DNA of 44,743 nt from Acidobacteriota bacterium (GTDB taxonomy: Bacteria > Acidobacteriota > Terriglobia > Terriglobales > Acidobacteriaceae), in assembly GCA_003225075.1 (NCBI GenBank), contig QIAP01000057.1, forward strand, positions 1 to 44,743, given 5' to 3'. Below are positions 31,724 to 44,496 of the stretch, one piece after another. Each line of letters opens with the position of its first letter. Position 1 is the first letter of the stretch. Under the pieces are notes generated by a model that worked only from the letters and a program-made list of their open reading frames with translations, did no database searches and had not been told where the DNA came from. Made by a program: the position numbers and the translations under genes.

Positions 31724-33214
31724 ATGACGGAGTTCAAGAAGTTCTTCCGGAGATTTCCTTTTCAGTTCCCGACTCGCTTAATACTAATCGTGCTGGTTGC
31801 GGGCTTCGGGTGTGCGCAAAAGCGGGTGGCACAGCAAGTACCGCCCCCGCCGGAGGCTTCGCCGACCACTGCTGGCGAGTCCTCGACAGAGACTAAGATC
31901 TCTCCTCAAGAAGCGCAGGAGCTTTTTCGCTCCGTCGACGAGATATTGAAATTTGCCAGCACTGATACCGGACTGCCAATTCATCATGACGTGAAGCGTC
32001 GTTTGACCAGCCGGGATGAAGTGGTGGCCTACATTCAAAAGCACATGGCCGAGGACGAAGATGCGCAGCGGCTACGGCGCTCGGAACTGGTACTGAAAAA
32101 ATTCGGGCTGTTGCCACGTGATTTCAATCTACAGACGTTTCTGGTGGGTTTGCTGCGTGAACAGGTGGCCGGCTACTACGATCCTCACACGAAAGCAGTT
32201 AACCTGCTGAATTGGATCGATCCCGAGCAGCAGAAGCCGGTGCTGGCCCATGAACTCACGCATGCATTGCAGGACCAATCATTTGGCCTGGAGAAGTGGA
32301 TGAAGGCCGGCGCCTCTGACCTGGAAGACAAGAAACAGCCTAGCCCCGCTGACATCGAGAGCGATGAGGTCTTCGCCGCGCGGCAAGCGGTGATCGAAGG
32401 ACAAGCCATGGTCGTGCTGATCGATTACAGCCTGGCGCCTACCGGGAAATCATTGGCAGACTCGCCTCAAATGGTCGAGGCCCTGAAAGCAGGCATGCTG
32501 GTTGGCACCGCCGACTCGGTGCAATTCCAGAACGCTCCGATTTATCTGAAGGAAGCAGTGACATTTGCCTATCGCTATGGTCTCGACTTTGAGGCTGAAT
32601 TGCTGAGCAAAGGTGGCAAGGCAAAAGCATTTGCAGGAGTGTTTAGCAATCCGCCACGCAGTACGCGTCAAATTATGGAGCCACAGACTTATCTTTCCGG
32701 GGAGCGGATTGCGCCCATGCGGCTTCCGGACTTCGCTCATGATTTCAAGAATTACGATCGGTTCGACATTGGAGCCATTGGCGAGTTCGATGTGGCGGTC
32801 CTGATCGATCAGTACGCCGGCGTCGATATGTCGAAACGTTTATACCCTCATTGGCGTGGCGGGTACTACTATGCGGCGCGTCCGAAGGGAGATGCTTCGG
32901 CGGCGCTTGCGCTGTTGTACGTATCGCGATGGTCGAACGGGGAGAAAGCGGAGGAGTTTGCGGATGTGTATGCCAAGTCGCTGATGAAGCGATATAAGCG
33001 TGCCAGAAAAGTTCTGCAGAGTGACGCAAAACCGGACAGTTCCACGTCGGCGGCGGACATCCTGACTGGTGAACACACCTGGCTCACCGAGGAGGGACCG
33101 GTTGTGATCGATGTGCAAGGTGATACGGTACTGGTCGCTGAGAGCTTGGATGAGGTGACGACTAAGCAAGTGGAAGGGGAAGTGTTTGCGAAGGCAGTCG
33201 CAGACAGGAATTAG
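31724..33214 (+). CDS. Lipoprotein with zincin (HExxH) motif
   Basis: 496 residues. The leader ends in a lipobox-like LVAGFGC, giving lipid attachment at about C30, followed by a Pro/Thr linker. The zinc motif is AHELTHALQDQ at about residue 180, preceded by VAGYYDPHTKAVNLL, an arrangement seen in small unnamed zincins. A downstream Glu-rich helix (DEVFAARQAVIEGQAM) supplies E-G as a possible third ligand. The C-terminal half contains a DxxxGYYYAARP region. It is likely an envelope-anchored metalloprotease of unknown target. ATG follows directly on the TAA of the dehydrogenase, so the two are probably translated together. Confidence 0.8.
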   Translation: MTEFKKFFRRFPFQFPTRLILIVLVAGFGCAQKRVAQQVPPPPEASPTTAGESSTETKISPQEAQELFRSVDEILKFASTDTGLPIHHDVKRRLTSRDEVVAYIQKHMAEDEDAQRLRRSELVLKKFGLLPRDFNLQTFLVGLLREQVAGYYDPHTKAVNLLNWIDPEQQKPVLAHELTHALQDQSFGLEKWMKAGASDLEDKKQPSPADIESDEVFAARQAVIEGQAMVVLIDYSLAPTGKSLADSPQMVEALKAGMLVGTADSVQFQNAPIYLKEAVTFAYRYGLDFEAELLSKGGKAKAFAGVFSNPPRSTRQIMEPQTYLSGERIAPMRLPDFAHDFKNYDRFDIGAIGEFDVAVLIDQYAGVDMSKRLYPHWRGGYYYAARPKGDASAALALLYVSRWSNGEKAEEFADVYAKSLMKRYKRARKVLQSDAKPDSSTSAADILTGEHTWLTEEGPVVIDVQGDTVLVAESLDEVTTKQVEGEVFAKAVADRN

Positions 33215-33279: not shown

Positions 33280-34170
33280 TTATGGCTTTGGACTCCAGAA
33301 AGGCTCGCTCGCCGGAACGAATTGGATCGCAACCTCAATCAAGAACGTCTTCAACCAGCGCGTGCACTCCTCCATGCCTGCCTGTTCAGAGGGAATATGG
33401 CTGAGGATGATCAACGACTTCTGTTTGCCCTCTGTAACCGCGTCGGCAACGTACTCGACTGTTTCCCATTCGTGCGCTTCTCCGATAACAAGAGTCTGCA
33501 CTGCCGTCATTTCCAGCGCTTCGGCATGGCGTGAAAATCCGGCAGCGCCGGGGGCAAGTGCGATTTTGGTTACGCGTAGATCAGGAACTCCTACCACCCG
33601 CATAACATGAATGCCCAGCTGGCGCTTGATAACGGCCGCAAGTTTTTCCAGCGTGGTCTCCGGAATAGCGAATAGATACTGATTGTGTGGATCCTGAAAC
33701 TTCTCCCATCCCAGGGCGTGAACCATCCCGGCCTCGATGCCGTCTGGATTTCGAGCATGCCAGTGATCGTGAAACCGCCAGATCACCAGGCCATGTTTCT
33801 CGATGAACTGTCGCTTTGCCGCCAGCACCTGGTCGTTTTCTTTCTCTGGTAACTGGTCGGTTTTGTCCAGGTGATCATAGAAAGTTGGTTCGTGTGTGAT
33901 GATCAGGTTATTGCCCGAAGCGGCCGCCCGCTGAAGCACATCAAGGGTAGCCATCATGGTTACCGCAATGCCGGTTACTGGAGTGTCGGGATTCCCGGCT
34001 TTGAAGGTATCCACAGTGTCGCTCCGCCAGGGAACTCCGACGTGCTGCTGAATGCGTGTGATCACTTCACGCGCTGTGAGGCGTTGATCGCCCGCAAACG
34101 CGGCACTGGTTAACGAGGCAATCGCAATCAAGAAGACAGTTGTAGATTTAATGAATCTCAGGGGCGGCAT
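33280..34170 (-). CDS. Exported Nif3-like (DUF34) protein
   Basis: 296 residues from ATG 34170. An N-terminal leader (KSTTVFLIAIASLTSAAFA) precedes a Nif3-like domain: LTAREVITRIQQHVGVPW, TPVTGIAVTMMATLDVLQRA, LIITHEPTFYDHLD (metal-site His-Glu), the middle insertion with RFHDHWHARNPDG, and a second half ending VIGEAHEWETVEYVADAV and IILSHIPSEQAGMEE. Nif3 proteins are usually cytosolic dinuclear-metal hexamers without a signal peptide, so secretion is unusual. The metal ligands look preserved. It is convergent with the zincin gene and stands alone. Confidence 0.82.
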   Translation of the reverse strand: MPPLRFIKSTTVFLIAIASLTSAAFAGDQRLTAREVITRIQQHVGVPWRSDTVDTFKAGNPDTPVTGIAVTMMATLDVLQRAAASGNNLIITHEPTFYDHLDKTDQLPEKENDQVLAAKRQFIEKHGLVIWRFHDHWHARNPDGIEAGMVHALGWEKFQDPHNQYLFAIPETTLEKLAAVIKRQLGIHVMRVVGVPDLRVTKIALAPGAAGFSRHAEALEMTAVQTLVIGEAHEWETVEYVADAVTEGKQKSLIILSHIPSEQAGMEECTRWLKTFLIEVAIQFVPASEPFWSPKP

Positions 34171-34298
34171 CTAATCCTCGGGGTTAGCTCACAACGAACT
34201 GGTCGCATTAGACCACAGAGCGCAGGGTCAACGCGGGGCGCCAGGGACATTTTGCTGTGGGCGGGAATCTCGCGATAGAAGTGAAGACATCACCATGC

Positions 34299-34340: not shown

Positions 34341-34553
34341 ATGCTAACCGTGAGGTTGTCTCCTGAGTTGGAAGCACGACTGAACAAGCTGGCCAAGCGC
34401 ACTGGCCGGCCAAAGGCATACTACGCGAAAAAAGCAATCGCTGAGTTTCTGGATGAGCAAGAAGATTACTTGATCGCGGTGTCACGATTAGAAGATCAGC
34501 TTCCTTCGATCTCATTGGATAAAGTGGTCAAGCGACTTGGCCTGGAGCGTTAG
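34341..34553 (+). CDS. RelB/DinJ-like ribbon-helix-helix antitoxin
   Basis: 70 residues. MLTVRLSPELEARLNKLAKR followed by TGRPKAYYAKKAIAEFLDEQ is the ribbon-helix-helix DNA-binding domain. The C-terminal segment DYLIAVSRLEDQLPSISLDK is the toxin-wrapping part seen in RelB-type antitoxins. GGGGAG lies eight bases upstream. It overlaps the toxin start by 17 bases and has its own promoter/operator, so it should neutralise the toxin and repress the pair. Confidence 0.92.
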   Translation: MLTVRLSPELEARLNKLAKRTGRPKAYYAKKAIAEFLDEQEDYLIAVSRLEDQLPSISLDKVVKRLGLER

Positions 34554-34806
34554 CTATGATCCACGTGCGCTGAAGGAATTAGAAAAGCTGGATCGTATTG
34601 CACAGAAACGCATCGTGAATTTCTTGCGAGATCGTATCGAAGGGCGTAGGAATCCACGTGAGTTGGGCAAGGCCCTGACCGGAGGCGAAATTAGACTGTG
34701 GCGATACCGCGTGGGTGACTATCGCATGATTGGTCAAATAAGCGATGCAAGCCAGATGGTACTGATCCTCCGAATTGCCCACCGAAAAGAAGCCTATCGA
34801 TATTGA
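34537..34806 (+). CDS. RelE/ParE-superfamily toxin
   Basis: 89 residues from a TTG at 34537, inside the antitoxin gene. The first residues (MAWSVSYDPRALKELEKLD) match the usual RelE start, which decides this unusual codon. The core is RIVNFLRDRIEGRRNPRELG, LWRYRVGDYRMIGQI and VLILRIAHRKEAYRY. The Arg (RYRVGDYR) and the C-terminal H-R-K-E-A-Y are positions used for mRNA cleavage in RelE-type ribosome-dependent nucleases. Translation is coupled to and limited by the antitoxin. The gene seems intact. Confidence 0.92.
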   Translation: MAWSVSYDPRALKELEKLDRIAQKRIVNFLRDRIEGRRNPRELGKALTGGEIRLWRYRVGDYRMIGQISDASQMVLILRIAHRKEAYRY

Positions 34807-40029: not shown

Positions 40030-41019
40030 ATGCATTCTGTCTCATATCGCCTTCGCATCAAGCCGCCTGCGCTCCGATCTGGGGACACCGTGGGCATTGT
40101 GGCGCCGGCCAGCAATATCCAGCCCGGTTTGCTTGAAAAAGGGTGTGACACTTTACGCAACCTGGGTTACAAGCCTTTCTACTTTGATTCCATTTTCGAT
40201 CAGGATTTTTACTTTGCAGGATCGATCTCGCGGCGGGCACGCGAATTTCAGGAAATGTTCATGCGCGATGACGTACGCGCAATTTTGTGTGCGCGCGGCG
40301 GGTACGGGTCGAACTATTTGCTGAGTGGCCTCGATCTTGGAGAGATTGCCGCTCATCCGAAGATTCTTGTCGGGTATAGCGACCTAAGCACGCTCTTAAC
40401 CTACATCACCGATTCCACTGGTCTGGTGACTTTCCACGGTCCCATGGTGACTAAGGACTTCGCCGTGGCCGACGGCGTGGATATTAGGGCATGGCAAGCG
40501 GCGCTGACGGGCTTGTCCGAATGGCATCTCGATGCCGGTACTGATTCTGGAGTAAAACCTTTAATTGAGGGCGAAGCGGAAGGAGTTTTGTACGGCGGAT
40601 GCCTTTCCATGATGGCGGCGTCTCTGGGCACGCCCTATGAGATTTCCACCGCGGAAACGATCCTTTTTATGGAGGATGTTGCCACCAAGCCCTACCAGAT
40701 TGACCGCATGCTCATGCAATTAAAACTTGCGGGAAAGCTGACAGGCGTGCGGGGAATAGTATTTGGCGAAATGCTGGACTGCGTGCAGACGAAACAAGAC
40801 CAAGGCTATACGCTGGAAGAAGTTGTGCTGCGCGTGGTCGGCGATTTAGGGGTTCCTGTGGCGTACGGGTTGCGGTCAGGGCACGTCTCGCGGAAAAACA
40901 TTACGCTGCCGCTGGGTGTGCGGGCGTCACTGAAAGTAGGCAAACGAGAGGTCAGCCTTAGAATTCTGGAAGCCGCGACGAGCTCGGCGGCCGTGTCCTC
41001 GGCTAGTTTGAAATCATGA
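40030..41019 (+). CDS. LD-carboxypeptidase (S66/MccF family)
   Basis: 329 residues without a leader, so cytosolic. GDTVGIVAPASNIQ starts the fold. The nucleophile S117 is in VGYSDLSTLL and the oxyanion region is CARGGYGSNYLL. The Glu and His of the triad are in LFMEDVATKPYQIDRML and the RSGHVSRKNITLPLG segment. It removes the terminal D-Ala from murein tetrapeptide during recycling. The product is the substrate of the Mpl ligase encoded next, which overlaps by 4 bases; this pairing supports the murein assignment over microcin-type immunity. Confidence 0.93.
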   Translation: MHSVSYRLRIKPPALRSGDTVGIVAPASNIQPGLLEKGCDTLRNLGYKPFYFDSIFDQDFYFAGSISRRAREFQEMFMRDDVRAILCARGGYGSNYLLSGLDLGEIAAHPKILVGYSDLSTLLTYITDSTGLVTFHGPMVTKDFAVADGVDIRAWQAALTGLSEWHLDAGTDSGVKPLIEGEAEGVLYGGCLSMMAASLGTPYEISTAETILFMEDVATKPYQIDRMLMQLKLAGKLTGVRGIVFGEMLDCVQTKQDQGYTLEEVVLRVVGDLGVPVAYGLRSGHVSRKNITLPLGVRASLKVGKREVSLRILEAATSSAAVSSASLKS

Positions 41020-42482
41020 CAGAAAAAAAGCACATCCATCTAATCGGCGTCTGCGGTACGGCGATGGCCTCGTTGGCCGGGATGCTTAAGCAGCGTGGTT
41101 TTCAGGTTACCGGCTCGGATGCGGCGTCTTATCCGCCGATGTCAGTTTTCCTCGGTGAGATGGGGATCCCGGTTTCACAGCCATTCAGCGCGACGAACTT
41201 GATGCCCCGGCCGGACCTGGTGGTTGTGGGCAACGCGATCTCACGCGGGAATGTGGAACTCGAACACGTGCTCGACCAGCATATTCCGTTCTGCTCCATG
41301 CCGCAGATTTTGCACGAAGAATTCTTGCGCGGAAAGGAGGTATTGGTGGTTGCGGGGACACACGGCAAGACGACCACCACCTCGATGCTGGCCTGGATTT
41401 TCCACACTGCCGGACAGCAACCGTCGTTTCTGATTGGGGGTCTGGCGGAGAATTTTGGCAGTAGCTTCGCCCTGGGTCAGGGCAAGCACTTCATCCTTGA
41501 AGGCGACGAGTACGATACGGCATTTTTCGATAAGGGACCAAAATTCCTGCATTACTTTCCGGACTCCGTCATTCTTACCTCGGTAGAATTTGATCACGCC
41601 GATATTTATAAGGATCTCGATGCCGTCGAAACGGCATTCAAACGATTGGTGAATTTGGTTCCGCGAAGCGGACGAATTGTGGCCTTCGAAGGAGGGGATA
41701 GCATCGAGCGTTGCGTGCGTAATGCGTTTTGCCCAGTTGAACGCTACGGATTGAGCGTAGGAGCCACCTGGCGGGTCACCGATATCCATCTTGAGCCCAC
41801 CCGCACTACGTGGTCGATGCTACACAACGGCGAGCTGTGGGGAAACTTCGAGTTCCCGTTGGGCGGCGAATACAACGTGTGGAACGCCACTGCGGCCGCG
41901 GCGCTGGCTGCGGAATGCGGTATATCCAAAGATGAGATTCGCGCCGCGTTGAAGACTTTCAAAAGCGTAAAGCGTCGCCTGGAAGTGAAAGCCCAGGTAA
42001 ACGGCATTACGATTATTGATGACTTTGCGCACCATCCCACCGCGATTAGCGGAACGCTGAATGCGCTGCGCTCGCGCTATCCGGGAGCCCGCTTGTGGGT
42101 GATTCTGGAGCCGCGTTCGAATACTCTGCGGCGCAACGTGCTGCAGAACGACTTGGCCAGTAGCCTGGCGCTGGCCGATGAAGTCGTAGTAGCGGGTATT
42201 TTCAAGTCGGACTCTATTCCAGAACACGAGCGGCTCGACCTTGGAGGCTTGGCGACTCAAATTCAGAGACGCGGAAGGCGAGCGCGTGTTATCTCCGATG
42301 TGGATTCAATCGTCCAGATGGTTGCCCCGGATATGCGTAGCGGCGACGTGGTTGCGATCCTGTCGAATGGCGGCTTTGGCGGCATTTATGAGAAGCTGCC
42401 ACAGCGGCTGAAGACGCTAGGCGGAAATGCGACAACTCAAAACTCCAGCCAGACGCCCGTCGAGGTGCCTGCCAAAGCATGA
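41016..42482 (+). CDS. mpl: UDP-N-acetylmuramate:tripeptide ligase (murein recycling)
   Basis: 488 residues of the Mur ligase family. The N-terminal UDP-binding domain has HLIGVCGTAMASLAGML, the hallmark GTAMASLA of Mpl as opposed to MurC. The P-loop GTHGKTTTTSML is at residues 114-125, ILEGDEYDTAFFDKGPKF is the Mpl-type central segment, and DDFAHHPTAISGTL is in the C-terminal domain. It attaches L-Ala-D-Glu-meso-DAP directly to UDP-MurNAc. Coupled to the LD-carboxypeptidase that makes the tripeptide. A Ser/Thr/Pro tail ends the protein. Confidence 0.96.
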   Translation: MTEKKHIHLIGVCGTAMASLAGMLKQRGFQVTGSDAASYPPMSVFLGEMGIPVSQPFSATNLMPRPDLVVVGNAISRGNVELEHVLDQHIPFCSMPQILHEEFLRGKEVLVVAGTHGKTTTTSMLAWIFHTAGQQPSFLIGGLAENFGSSFALGQGKHFILEGDEYDTAFFDKGPKFLHYFPDSVILTSVEFDHADIYKDLDAVETAFKRLVNLVPRSGRIVAFEGGDSIERCVRNAFCPVERYGLSVGATWRVTDIHLEPTRTTWSMLHNGELWGNFEFPLGGEYNVWNATAAAALAAECGISKDEIRAALKTFKSVKRRLEVKAQVNGITIIDDFAHHPTAISGTLNALRSRYPGARLWVILEPRSNTLRRNVLQNDLASSLALADEVVVAGIFKSDSIPEHERLDLGGLATQIQRRGRRARVISDVDSIVQMVAPDMRSGDVVAILSNGGFGGIYEKLPQRLKTLGGNATTQNSSQTPVEVPAKA

Positions 42483-42608
42483 TCCGCAGGCGCCGGATCA
42501 TGTTTGCATTCTGCTTGCGGCCGGTCTTCTAATCTCGCCGTCAGCTTCAAGTCGAACTAAGTTTGTTAAGTTTGGAACCGGCGAAGCGTCGCCCGCAAGG
42601 GCACACCC

Positions 42609-43358
42609 GTGATCCAGACGATGCTCATGCTTGCCTTCTGGGCACTGGCGCTGCCGGTTGCAGCGCTACTGGCCTTTCCCTGGACCCTTCTTTCCCGCAA
42701 TGCCAGTTTTCTCTACCGCGTGGGTATGCGGAGCGCCTGGACCGGCGTGCGCCTGGCCGGTGTGAGTGTGCGGACTCTCGGTATGGAACGATTAGATCCG
42801 CGTGGCACATATATCTTCATGTCTAATCACGTTTCCAATCTTGATCCACCCATTCTTTTGCCAATCATCCCCGGACGAACTTCCGTTATGGCGAAAAAAG
42901 AGCTATTCGATTACCCGCTTCTTGGGGAGGCCATGCGGTTGGGGTCGCTGGTTCCGGTGGACCGCGGTAATCGAGATGCAGGCATTGCGGCGGTACGAGC
43001 GGCCGGCGAGGTCATTCGCCAGGGAATCAATATGACGATCTTCGTGGAAGGGAAACGTTCGTTTGATGGGAAATTGCTGCCCTTCAAGAAAGGTCCTTTC
43101 TATCTGGCGATGGAATGTGGAGTGCCCGTTGTGCCGGTAACGATTGTCGGCACACACGAGATTATGCCCAAGCGAAGATTCTCAATCCGTCCGGGAACGG
43201 CGACAATTGTTTTTCATGAGCCGATTGATCCCAAAGATTTCGGTGATCGTGATTCGCTCATGGCGAAAGTGCGGGCGGCGATTGATAGCGGGCTTCCGCC
43301 TGAATATCGAGAACACAGCCTGCCAACCACCAATGAAAACAGCGGATGTTCACCTTAA
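42609..43358 (+). CDS. plsC: 1-acyl-glycerol-3-phosphate acyltransferase
   Basis: 249 residues from GTG 42609. An N-terminal membrane helix (LMLAFWALALPVAALLAFPW) precedes the acyltransferase motifs: H74 and D79 in SNHVSNLDPP (H-x4-D), VPVDRGNRDAG, the substrate-phosphate motif FVEGKRSFDGKLLPFKKG and VPVVPVTIVGT. It makes phosphatidic acid at the inner membrane. AAGGG lies about 10 bases upstream. It converges on lpxD, with 26 bases between stops. Confidence 0.93.
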   Translation: MIQTMLMLAFWALALPVAALLAFPWTLLSRNASFLYRVGMRSAWTGVRLAGVSVRTLGMERLDPRGTYIFMSNHVSNLDPPILLPIIPGRTSVMAKKELFDYPLLGEAMRLGSLVPVDRGNRDAGIAAVRAAGEVIRQGINMTIFVEGKRSFDGKLLPFKKGPFYLAMECGVPVVPVTIVGTHEIMPKRRFSIRPGTATIVFHEPIDPKDFGDRDSLMAKVRAAIDSGLPPEYREHSLPTTNENSGCSP

Positions 43359-43384
43359 AGAATATACATGCGCGCCTCTTGTCC

Positions 43385-44389
43385 TTACTTCTGTTCCGTT
43401 CTGGCACGCAACGCCTTGGCAATTTCCGGCAATTTGTTAAAAACCGCCGAGCAACGCAACCACAACTTGTTGTCAATCGCCGGATAACCGCTGACCACGG
43501 CTCCCGCGGCGACGTCGCTGGGGATGCCACTTTGAGCAGTGGCGATGACACCGTCACCAATCTTGCAGTGACCGGCGACACCGACTTGTCCGGCCAGAAT
43601 CACGTTGTTGCCGACCTCTGTAGACCCGGCAAGCCCTACCTGCGCGCATAACAGCGTGTTTTCGCCGACTTCGGAACCGTGGCCGACCTGCACCAGATTG
43701 TCTACTTTTGTCCCGCGGCCGATTCGTGTTTGTCCGATGCTGGCGCGGTCCACGCAGGCGTTAGCCTGAACTTCAACTTCGTCTTCGAGGATGGCTGGGC
43801 CGGACTGCACAATTTTGTGCCACTTGCCGGAATCGTCTTTGGCGAATCCGAATCCGTCGGCTCCGATCACCACGCCATTTTGTAAGGTGACGCCGTTTCC
43901 CAGGCGGCAGTATTCGCGAACCATGGCATGAGCGTGGGCGAAAAAATTGTCCCCAATCTTCGCATCGCGGTAGATAACCACATGCGCCAACAGAACCGCG
44001 TTTTTGCCAATCTCGACATTTTCGTCAATGACCACGTATGGTCCAATGTGGGCATGTGCTCCGATTTTCGCGGAAGAATGAATTATCGCCGTGGAGTGCA
44101 CACCCGGCGCATATCGCGGCGGCTGGTAGAAGAGTTCAATCGCTCGCGCGAACGAGAGATAAGGGTTGTTGGAGCGCAGCATCGCGGTAGAGACGGCGGG
44201 GAAGTCATCCGCCACGATCACCGCAGAAGCCTGCGTGGTCCTGGCGGTGGCAGCATATTTGCGGTTGGCGACAAAGGTGATCTGACCGGCTACGGCTTCG
44301 TCGATGCCGGCGACTCCAGTGATTTCGGTGTCGGGCGAACCGTTTTCCAGGCGCGCGTTCAAAGTAGAGGCGATCTGTGAAAGTTTCAT
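43385..44389 (-). CDS. lpxD: UDP-3-O-acylglucosamine N-acyltransferase
   Basis: 334 residues from ATG 44389 (MKLSQIASTLNARLENG); the frame extends to 44470 but the added residues are not family-like. An N-terminal uridine-binding domain (ITGVAGIDEAVAGQITFVAN) is followed by a left-handed beta-helix of hexapeptide repeats: IGAHAHIGPYVVIDENVEIG through IGRGTKVDNLVQVGHGSEVG to GQVGVAGHCKIGDG. The catalytic His is one of those in QVGHG or VAGHC. A C-terminal helix (AVFNKLPEIAKALRA) ends it. It adds the second acyl chain in lipid A synthesis, implying an LPS outer membrane. Confidence 0.96.
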   Translation of the reverse strand: MKLSQIASTLNARLENGSPDTEITGVAGIDEAVAGQITFVANRKYAATARTTQASAVIVADDFPAVSTAMLRSNNPYLSFARAIELFYQPPRYAPGVHSTAIIHSSAKIGAHAHIGPYVVIDENVEIGKNAVLLAHVVIYRDAKIGDNFFAHAHAMVREYCRLGNGVTLQNGVVIGADGFGFAKDDSGKWHKIVQSGPAILEDEVEVQANACVDRASIGQTRIGRGTKVDNLVQVGHGSEVGENTLLCAQVGLAGSTEVGNNVILAGQVGVAGHCKIGDGVIATAQSGIPSDVAAGAVVSGYPAIDNKLWLRCSAVFNKLPEIAKALRARTEQK

Positions 44390-44496
44390 AAGATGGAATC
44401 CATTGACGCGAAGTAGAGCGTGATTGTAACGGAAGTGCGGTTGCCTGACTCTGCGGGCAGGTAGCGCCAAACCGGGCGGGATGGAGGAGGTTCTGC

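Follow-up and report, generated by a model that had tools for sequence, protein, structure and literature searches.

The window, the whole stretch of 44,743 nucleotides of an Acidobacteriota contig (QIAP01000057.1) that was analysed, contains on its minus strand, at 33280-34170, an intact open reading frame of 296 amino acids that encodes a DUF34/NIF3 protein with a Sec-type leader. An earlier note on this DNA had described an exported Nif3-like gene here, and its account of the reading frame, the strand and the length was confirmed. The leader occupies codons 1-26 (34093-34170, minus strand) and reads MPPLRFIKSTTVFLIAIASLTSAAFA, with the cleavage motif AFA lying directly before G in the GD with which the mature protein would begin. 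Two basic residues are followed by an uncharged hydrophobic stretch and by the AFA motif, so that a rule-based scorer recognises the n-, h- and c-regions and the cleavage motif of a Sec-exported protein. The note had named a downstream start that removes the leader as the finding that would undo its reading, and the start codon was therefore inspected. An in-frame TAG stands directly before the ATG, and a ribosome-binding-like GAGG lies 5 nt upstream of the ATG (34171-34179, minus strand). The nearest later starts are TTG14, which lies within the leader, and GTG36, which would lose the conserved T32-A33 of the fold. Compared with the 81% identical relative L025, the leader carries 36 base substitutions (9, 8 and 19 at codon positions 1, 2 and 3), with 10 synonymous and 12 amino-acid-changing codons among 27, while 113 of 164 substitutions in the core fall at third positions; from this pattern we conclude that the leader is translated and constrained, less strongly than the core.

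Leader calls were made with our own simple rule set, as Sec or Tat. A leader was found in 86 of 101 family proteins including the window's (73 Sec, 13 Tat; 102 distinct ORFs had been found and one fragment was dropped), and of the 15 that the scorer misses, eight carry a leader by eye and the other seven are all partners in the tandem pairs described below. Among controls, the scorer passes 11 of 303 sequence windows within the domain and none of four canonical DUF34 proteins; it is permissive, since 169 of 403 neighbouring ORFs pass. Canonical DUF34 proteins begin at about the point where the leader ends, as they would if the leader were a misassigned start and the protein a normal cytosolic DUF34, but the stop before the ATG, the lack of a usable later start, the codon-constrained leader and the 86 of 101 relatives with leaders make such a misassignment hardly credible. 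The signal peptide of the earlier note is thus borne out by the scorer and by the start-codon and codon tests, and export of the window protein, as judged from sequence, is well supported and very probable.

The domain assignment of the note was borne out as well: PF01784 (DUF34_NIF3) matches residues 58-284 at 59.7 bits, against a Pfam cut-off of 23.4. TIGR00486, the NCBIfam equivalog of YbgI/SA1388, scores 42.3 bits, far under its cut-off of 130.55, so the protein does not belong to that equivalog. An AlphaFold2 model built from an 81-row alignment has a mean pLDDT of 94.0 and a pTM of 0.88 (a single-sequence model reached a pLDDT of only 34). Its best structure match is XynX (9g9u; Foldseek E 5.5e-29), which VIA-align places at Z 33.5 and 1.7 A over 262 residues. 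Canonical NIF3 structures mostly align with the model at Z 21-26 over 234-246 residues (YbgI 23.0; 3rxy 13.4), and the predicted model has the NIF3 fold of the DUF34/NIF3 superfamily. Fold matches ranking under the NIF3 entries, the best of them LpxD at Z 5.0, were taken as chance.

The NIF3 gene stands alone in the window, with no same-strand partner beside it. A RelB-like antitoxin gene (NF048017, 77.4 bits) within 34341-34806 on the plus strand adjoins it divergently, and a RelE/StbE-like toxin within the same plus-strand interval scores 20.8 bits, under its cut-off of 27.9. A putative surface protein, distantly Hvo_1808-like (77 bits, cut-off 200), is encoded at 31724-33214 on the plus strand and converges on the NIF3 gene. 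A PfkB-type kinase lies 1.6 kb from it on the other strand. Home-built profiles of six keto-sugar-type families, in a search confined to those families, found no match in the 44.7 kb window. In close relatives the NIF3 gene adjoins homologs of Mpl, a 600-residue ORF, an acyltransferase and LpxD; this applies to between five and seven loci among L026, L028-L030, L032, L034 and L035, the number varying by gene and with contig ends. In the window, Mpl, acyltransferase and LpxD genes stand together at 41016-44470 without the NIF3 gene, which sits 7 to 10 kb off. The position of the NIF3 gene is therefore not conserved; relative to the Mpl block it has moved, or been lost and regained.

To describe the metal site we used a family alignment in which the ligand columns of the window protein are H93, E94, H134, H138, H258 and E262. 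We take these columns to be the metal ligands of YbgI. They agree with the motifs in PMC8469502, which gives five His, one Glu and one Asp as the canonical DUF34 metal ligands. The first motif, T92-H93-E94-P95 (33886-33897, minus strand), has HE where canonical proteins have HH; the second, H134-D-H-W-H138 (33757-33771, minus strand), stands in place of the canonical HTxLD; and the third is the C-terminal metal motif H258xxxE262 (33385-33399, minus strand). All four canonical rows, from Bacteroidota, have H in the E94 column and D in the H138 column, and they show HTNLD or HTALD where the window protein has HDHWH. The HDHWH that the earlier note had read as an insertion is therefore a replacement. 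Its preserved His/Glu metal residues likewise need rewording, for of the six positions compared, out of seven canonical ligands, four are kept, while one H to E and one D to H swap have remodelled the site from HH to HE and from HxxxD to HxxxH.

This remodelled site is itself highly conserved. Among 100 aligned members including the window's, H93, H134, H138 and H258 are each kept in 93, and E94 and E262 in 99; the seven that deviate at the four His columns match, by their residues, the seven degenerate members of tandem pairs. All six ligand positions are intact in 51 of 51 single-copy loci. Other acids are conserved to the same degree (D102 in 94 of the 100, D135 in 97, D143 in 98, E231 in 94, E234 in 99 and E236 in 96), and together with W137 and W235 these are near-invariant beyond the ligands. 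The conserved acids would point to a constrained pocket and not to simple metal storage. Full retention of the ligands in the single-copy loci could also be expected of an exported metal chaperone or insertase that loads secreted metalloenzymes, an envelope counterpart of the metallocofactor role that has been proposed for DUF34 proteins; PMC8469502 makes a case, based in part on gene neighbourhoods, for the family as metal insertases or chaperones. Against such a role, the conservation of acids and tryptophans in addition to the ligands suggests a pocket for a substrate.

The HE and HxxxH motifs common to the window protein and XynX mark what we call here the XynX-type subgroup, to which the window protein belongs. 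A quick tree of 111 rows separates the four canonical ones from the other 107, among them XynX and the window protein (SH-aLRT 100); XynX lies on a long branch inside a 98-row set that contains the window protein (support 99), and the window protein falls in a Sec set of 24 rows (SH-aLRT 98). Leader state, some of it set by hand (43 Sec, 39 Tat, 25 none), changes seven times on this tree, against a mean of 49 when shuffled. The many relatives that use Tat add a point in favour of a metal chaperone, as the Tat route would let the protein be metal-loaded in the cytoplasm. Forms without a leader comprise the deposited XynX, loci L238-L248 of Verrucomicrobiota (doubtful for L241) and partners in the tandem pairs. 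Among the 51 single-copy loci, six of which (L147, L149-L152, L206) repeat loci among L025-L104 and a few of which are pairs from one genome, a hydrophobic leader stretch is present in 41 (in L241 just at the threshold), and the ten without it are all in the Verrucomicrobiota set. That set is XynX-type, with 10 of its 11 loci lacking a leader stretch, and some of its loci adjoin glycoside hydrolases, namely GH94 (L239), GH29 (L244) and GH16 (L246). In one further relative (L046, 3965-4873) the gene is split into two ORFs, being either broken or affected by a sequencing error.

PF01784 has a single match in the window's own genome (97.6% complete), the window gene itself. Among 100 genomes sampled as relatives, its own included, the window protein finds matches in 13 and PF01784 in the same 13 at the same places; no canonical DUF34 was therefore seen in this sample. 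DUF34 is called ubiquitous, yet this 100-genome sample holds only XynX-type members. Of eight genomes reached through relatives, six (four Bacteroidota, one Gemmatimonadota, one Verrucomicrobiota) carry a strong canonical-type PF01784 match in addition to the XynX type, and the remaining two, from Terriglobia and Nevskia, have one PF01784 match each. At E 1e-30 the profile finds members in 19 of 296 sampled genomes of Bacteroidota (the phylum of L094), 12 of 240 of Verrucomicrobiota (that of L102) and 19 of 297 of the window's own phylum. The XynX-type gene is thus accessory and patchy, and the group appears to span several phyla, with Sec, Tat or no leader; many of the loci come from metagenome bins, and individual taxon labels may therefore be mistaken. 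The exported branch suggested in the earlier note does exist, has many members and extends over several phyla, and it is plausible that its role is not that of the cytosolic family.

Thirteen loci (L103, L104, L135-L139 and L223-L228) carry two copies in tandem. In all 13, one copy has a twin-arginine (Tat) leader and the other is leaderless; in all 13, one copy has an intact ligand set and the other keeps at most two of the six ligands (in L103 and L104, that the Tat copy is the intact one was deduced by elimination from alignment counts). The degenerate copy is the leaderless one in five pairs (L103, L104, L135, L137, L138) and the Tat copy in eight (L136, L139, L223-L228), the arrangement being opposite in these two lineages. 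The paired genes overlap in ATGA in L223, L227 and L228, a classic sign of coupled translation. In L136, L139 and L224-L226 the start of the second copy is a matter of choice, because its frame is open into the first gene, and we placed it beside the domain, where it also lies in the ATGA cases. The upstream open stretch holds an RR motif in L136, L139 and L224, with the hydrophobic run absent in L136 and L139 and weak (1.06) in L224. The leaderless partners form one group in 0 of 200 bootstrap trees, and a single leader loss gives p 0.264 in the AU test, which is no rejection; two separate losses are favoured by the trees. The grouping of the degenerate copies has low support (76/9) and may reflect attraction between long branches.

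The simplest reading of these pairs is a mixed oligomer that would be exported folded by Tat with the leaderless subunit riding along, a rival being that the leaderless copy works in the cytosol. More broadly, we consider it possible, at somewhat less than an even chance, that there is an extracytoplasmic carbohydrate-enzyme branch of NIF3 proteins, part of which consists of Tat hitchhiker hetero-oligomers with one metal-site-bearing subunit and one pseudo-enzyme as structural or carrier subunit. In that exported NIF3 branch, the window gene counts among the single-copy forms with a Sec leader.

To survey neighbours of relatives, 66 dereplicated loci were examined, in which 51 operon-like neighbours were found and 47 judged (45 scanned, and two of L147 through homologs at L027), four short or doubtful ORFs being omitted. 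No conserved operon partner is common to the whole group, synteny being found only within sub-clades, and the widest neighbour cluster is TonB-receptor-like, with 18 loci. Carbohydrate-related genes make up 17 of the 47 operon-like neighbours, compared with 2 of the 30 scanned among 41 far genes drawn (p 0.003 in a one-sided Fisher test); under loose criteria the counts are 20 near and 4 far (p 0.006). These p values are indicative only, because the criteria were post hoc and the near genes are operon-like while the far genes are not. The 17 carbohydrate-related neighbours include GH3, GH16, GH26, GH29, GH39 and GH94 enzymes, an amylase, a glucuronyl esterase, a 3-keto-disaccharide hydrolase, ThuA, GMC with gluconate dehydrogenase subunit 3, GntP and others. 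The leaderless loci of Verrucomicrobiota contribute three of the 17, and omitting their four judged neighbours leaves 14 of 43. One locus, L230, runs from a GH43 xylosidase through GH3 and a XynX-type gene with a Tat leader to a glucuronyl esterase, a setting that resembles that of XynX. Such surroundings speak, weakly, against a chaperone for secreted metalloenzymes: the recurring neighbours among those scanned are carbohydrate enzymes, many of them glycoside hydrolases, and glycoside hydrolases as a rule need no transition-metal centre. Overall we think a metal chaperone or insertase unlikely.

The closest relatives by identity are L025 (81%) and L027 and L031 (73% each), and in all three the gene lies beside a GMC oxidoreductase and gluconate-2-dehydrogenase subunit 3; L025 also has a 3-keto-disaccharide hydrolase, and L027 and L031 have xylose-isomerase-like barrels. 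The next closest relatives (L026, L028 and others) have no match to the six keto-sugar-type families, and any of the six occurs in 10 of the 80 loci L025-L104 (E 1e-3, within the stretch examined per locus). A 3-keto-disaccharide hydrolase is encoded in 12 of 13 genomes that bear the gene and in 55 of 87 without it, a weak association. A specific 3-keto-sugar role was demoted to one example, since only those 10 of 80 loci carry the families.

The same carbohydrate setting would suit a non-catalytic protein, descended from a regulator of the XynX kind, that binds ligands or regulates and so senses sugars outside the membrane: XynX is reported as a regulator of xynA, and regulator-like genes lie beside some relatives (an AraC type at L248; a response-regulator-like cluster in five loci). 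An exported protein, however, cannot bind chromosomal promoters, yet its site is the same as that of XynX, and full ligand conservation in the 51 single-copy loci fits catalysis. Nor does any regulator-like cluster exceed five loci among the 32 largest neighbour clusters, and we regard a sugar sensor as quite improbable.

Because the exported branch has the metal site of XynX, that site likely performs small-molecule chemistry that is also possible outside the cytoplasm, and for this reason we favour an extracytoplasmic dinuclear-metal enzyme. In the mechanism that we propose, Sec would export the XynX-type DUF34/NIF3 protein and the 26-residue leader would be removed; the mature protein would adopt the usual NIF3 unit in the envelope, probably as a hexamer, and bind two metal ions through H93, E94, H134, H138, H258 and E262; and there it would most likely be a metal-dependent enzyme, a hydrolase, a hydratase or an isomerase, whose substrate is a small molecule derived from sugar, such as a keto-sugar or lactone from periplasmic sugar oxidation. 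Actual export, metal content, catalysis and substrate class are in each case what we infer for the window protein, and the statement as a whole, that this is a dinuclear-metal enzyme working outside the cytoplasm on a small molecule derived from sugar, stands in our judgement at about an even chance. The excess of carbohydrate genes beside relatives and the xylan cluster of XynX would speak for a sugar substrate; against it, the window gene stands alone, the keto-sugar families are few, and TonB-receptor-like genes fit general uptake. GTP cyclohydrolase I type 2 is a database name only, one disputed for the DUF34 family (PMC8469502), and a protein located in the envelope speaks against it. The interpretation of the earlier note is thus supported in part, in its exported branch, and not in its preserved ligands and insertion as worded.

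The DUF34/NIF3 family is present in all superkingdoms and its function is disputed (PMC8469502). The apparent export of a member narrows the possible roles of such proteins: a branch working outside the cytoplasm would exclude, for itself, GTP cyclohydrolase activity, promoter binding and cytosolic cofactor maturation, and the place to look for its function would be envelope chemistry beside the oxidation of sugars and the breakdown of polysaccharides. Mutants can be placed exactly at the conserved swap of ligands to HE/HxxxH. In the tandem pairs, nature has already set active subunits apart from inactive ones, and Tat hitchhiking could be tested on them.

In the open-licence PMC texts that we consulted, no published report of the leader-bearing NIF3 group was found. 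The premise of the earlier note that known Nif3 proteins are cytosolic is mostly right, with bacterial DUF34 proteins described as predominantly cytoplasmic, but truncated homologs are reported as secreted in Pseudomonas (both PMC8469502). One paper lists a YqfO from a culture liquid as cytoplasmic, and a nematicidal Nif3 protein of Pseudomonas syringae is cited in one paper. Among known systems, the 3-keto-glycoside and lactose pathways (Caulobacter LacABC and others) resemble the surroundings of some relatives, which adjoin 3-keto-disaccharide hydrolase, GMC oxidoreductase, ThuA and xylose-isomerase-like genes, and a periplasmic DUF1080 protein has been proposed in these pathways (PMC9007349). 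The sections of PMC9007349 consulted mention no NIF3-type protein, however, and the window is without matches to those families. Canonical YbgI (1nmo), SA1388 (3lnl, 2nyd), 2gx8 and HcgD (3wsd) share the fold, the C-terminal HxxxE and the first His of HTxLD with the window protein, which differs from canonical DUF34 in having HE for HH, H for D and a leader, and in having no YqfO-like insert.

Among relatives that have been solved and characterised, XynX of Geobacillus proteiniphilus T-6 (9g9u) is the closest, at 34% identity. XynX lies in a xylan gene cluster (PMC4593210) and is reported as a negative regulator of xynA (PMC8469502), acting, according to PMC8670212, through binding of the xynA promoter. 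It differs from the window protein in its long branch in the tree, in this description as a regulator that binds a promoter, a role not open to an exported protein, and in its deposited chain, which has no leader and whose residue 4 aligns to residue 32 of the window protein. XynX has the same THE motif and C-terminal HxxxE, and HDYWH where the window protein has HDHWH.
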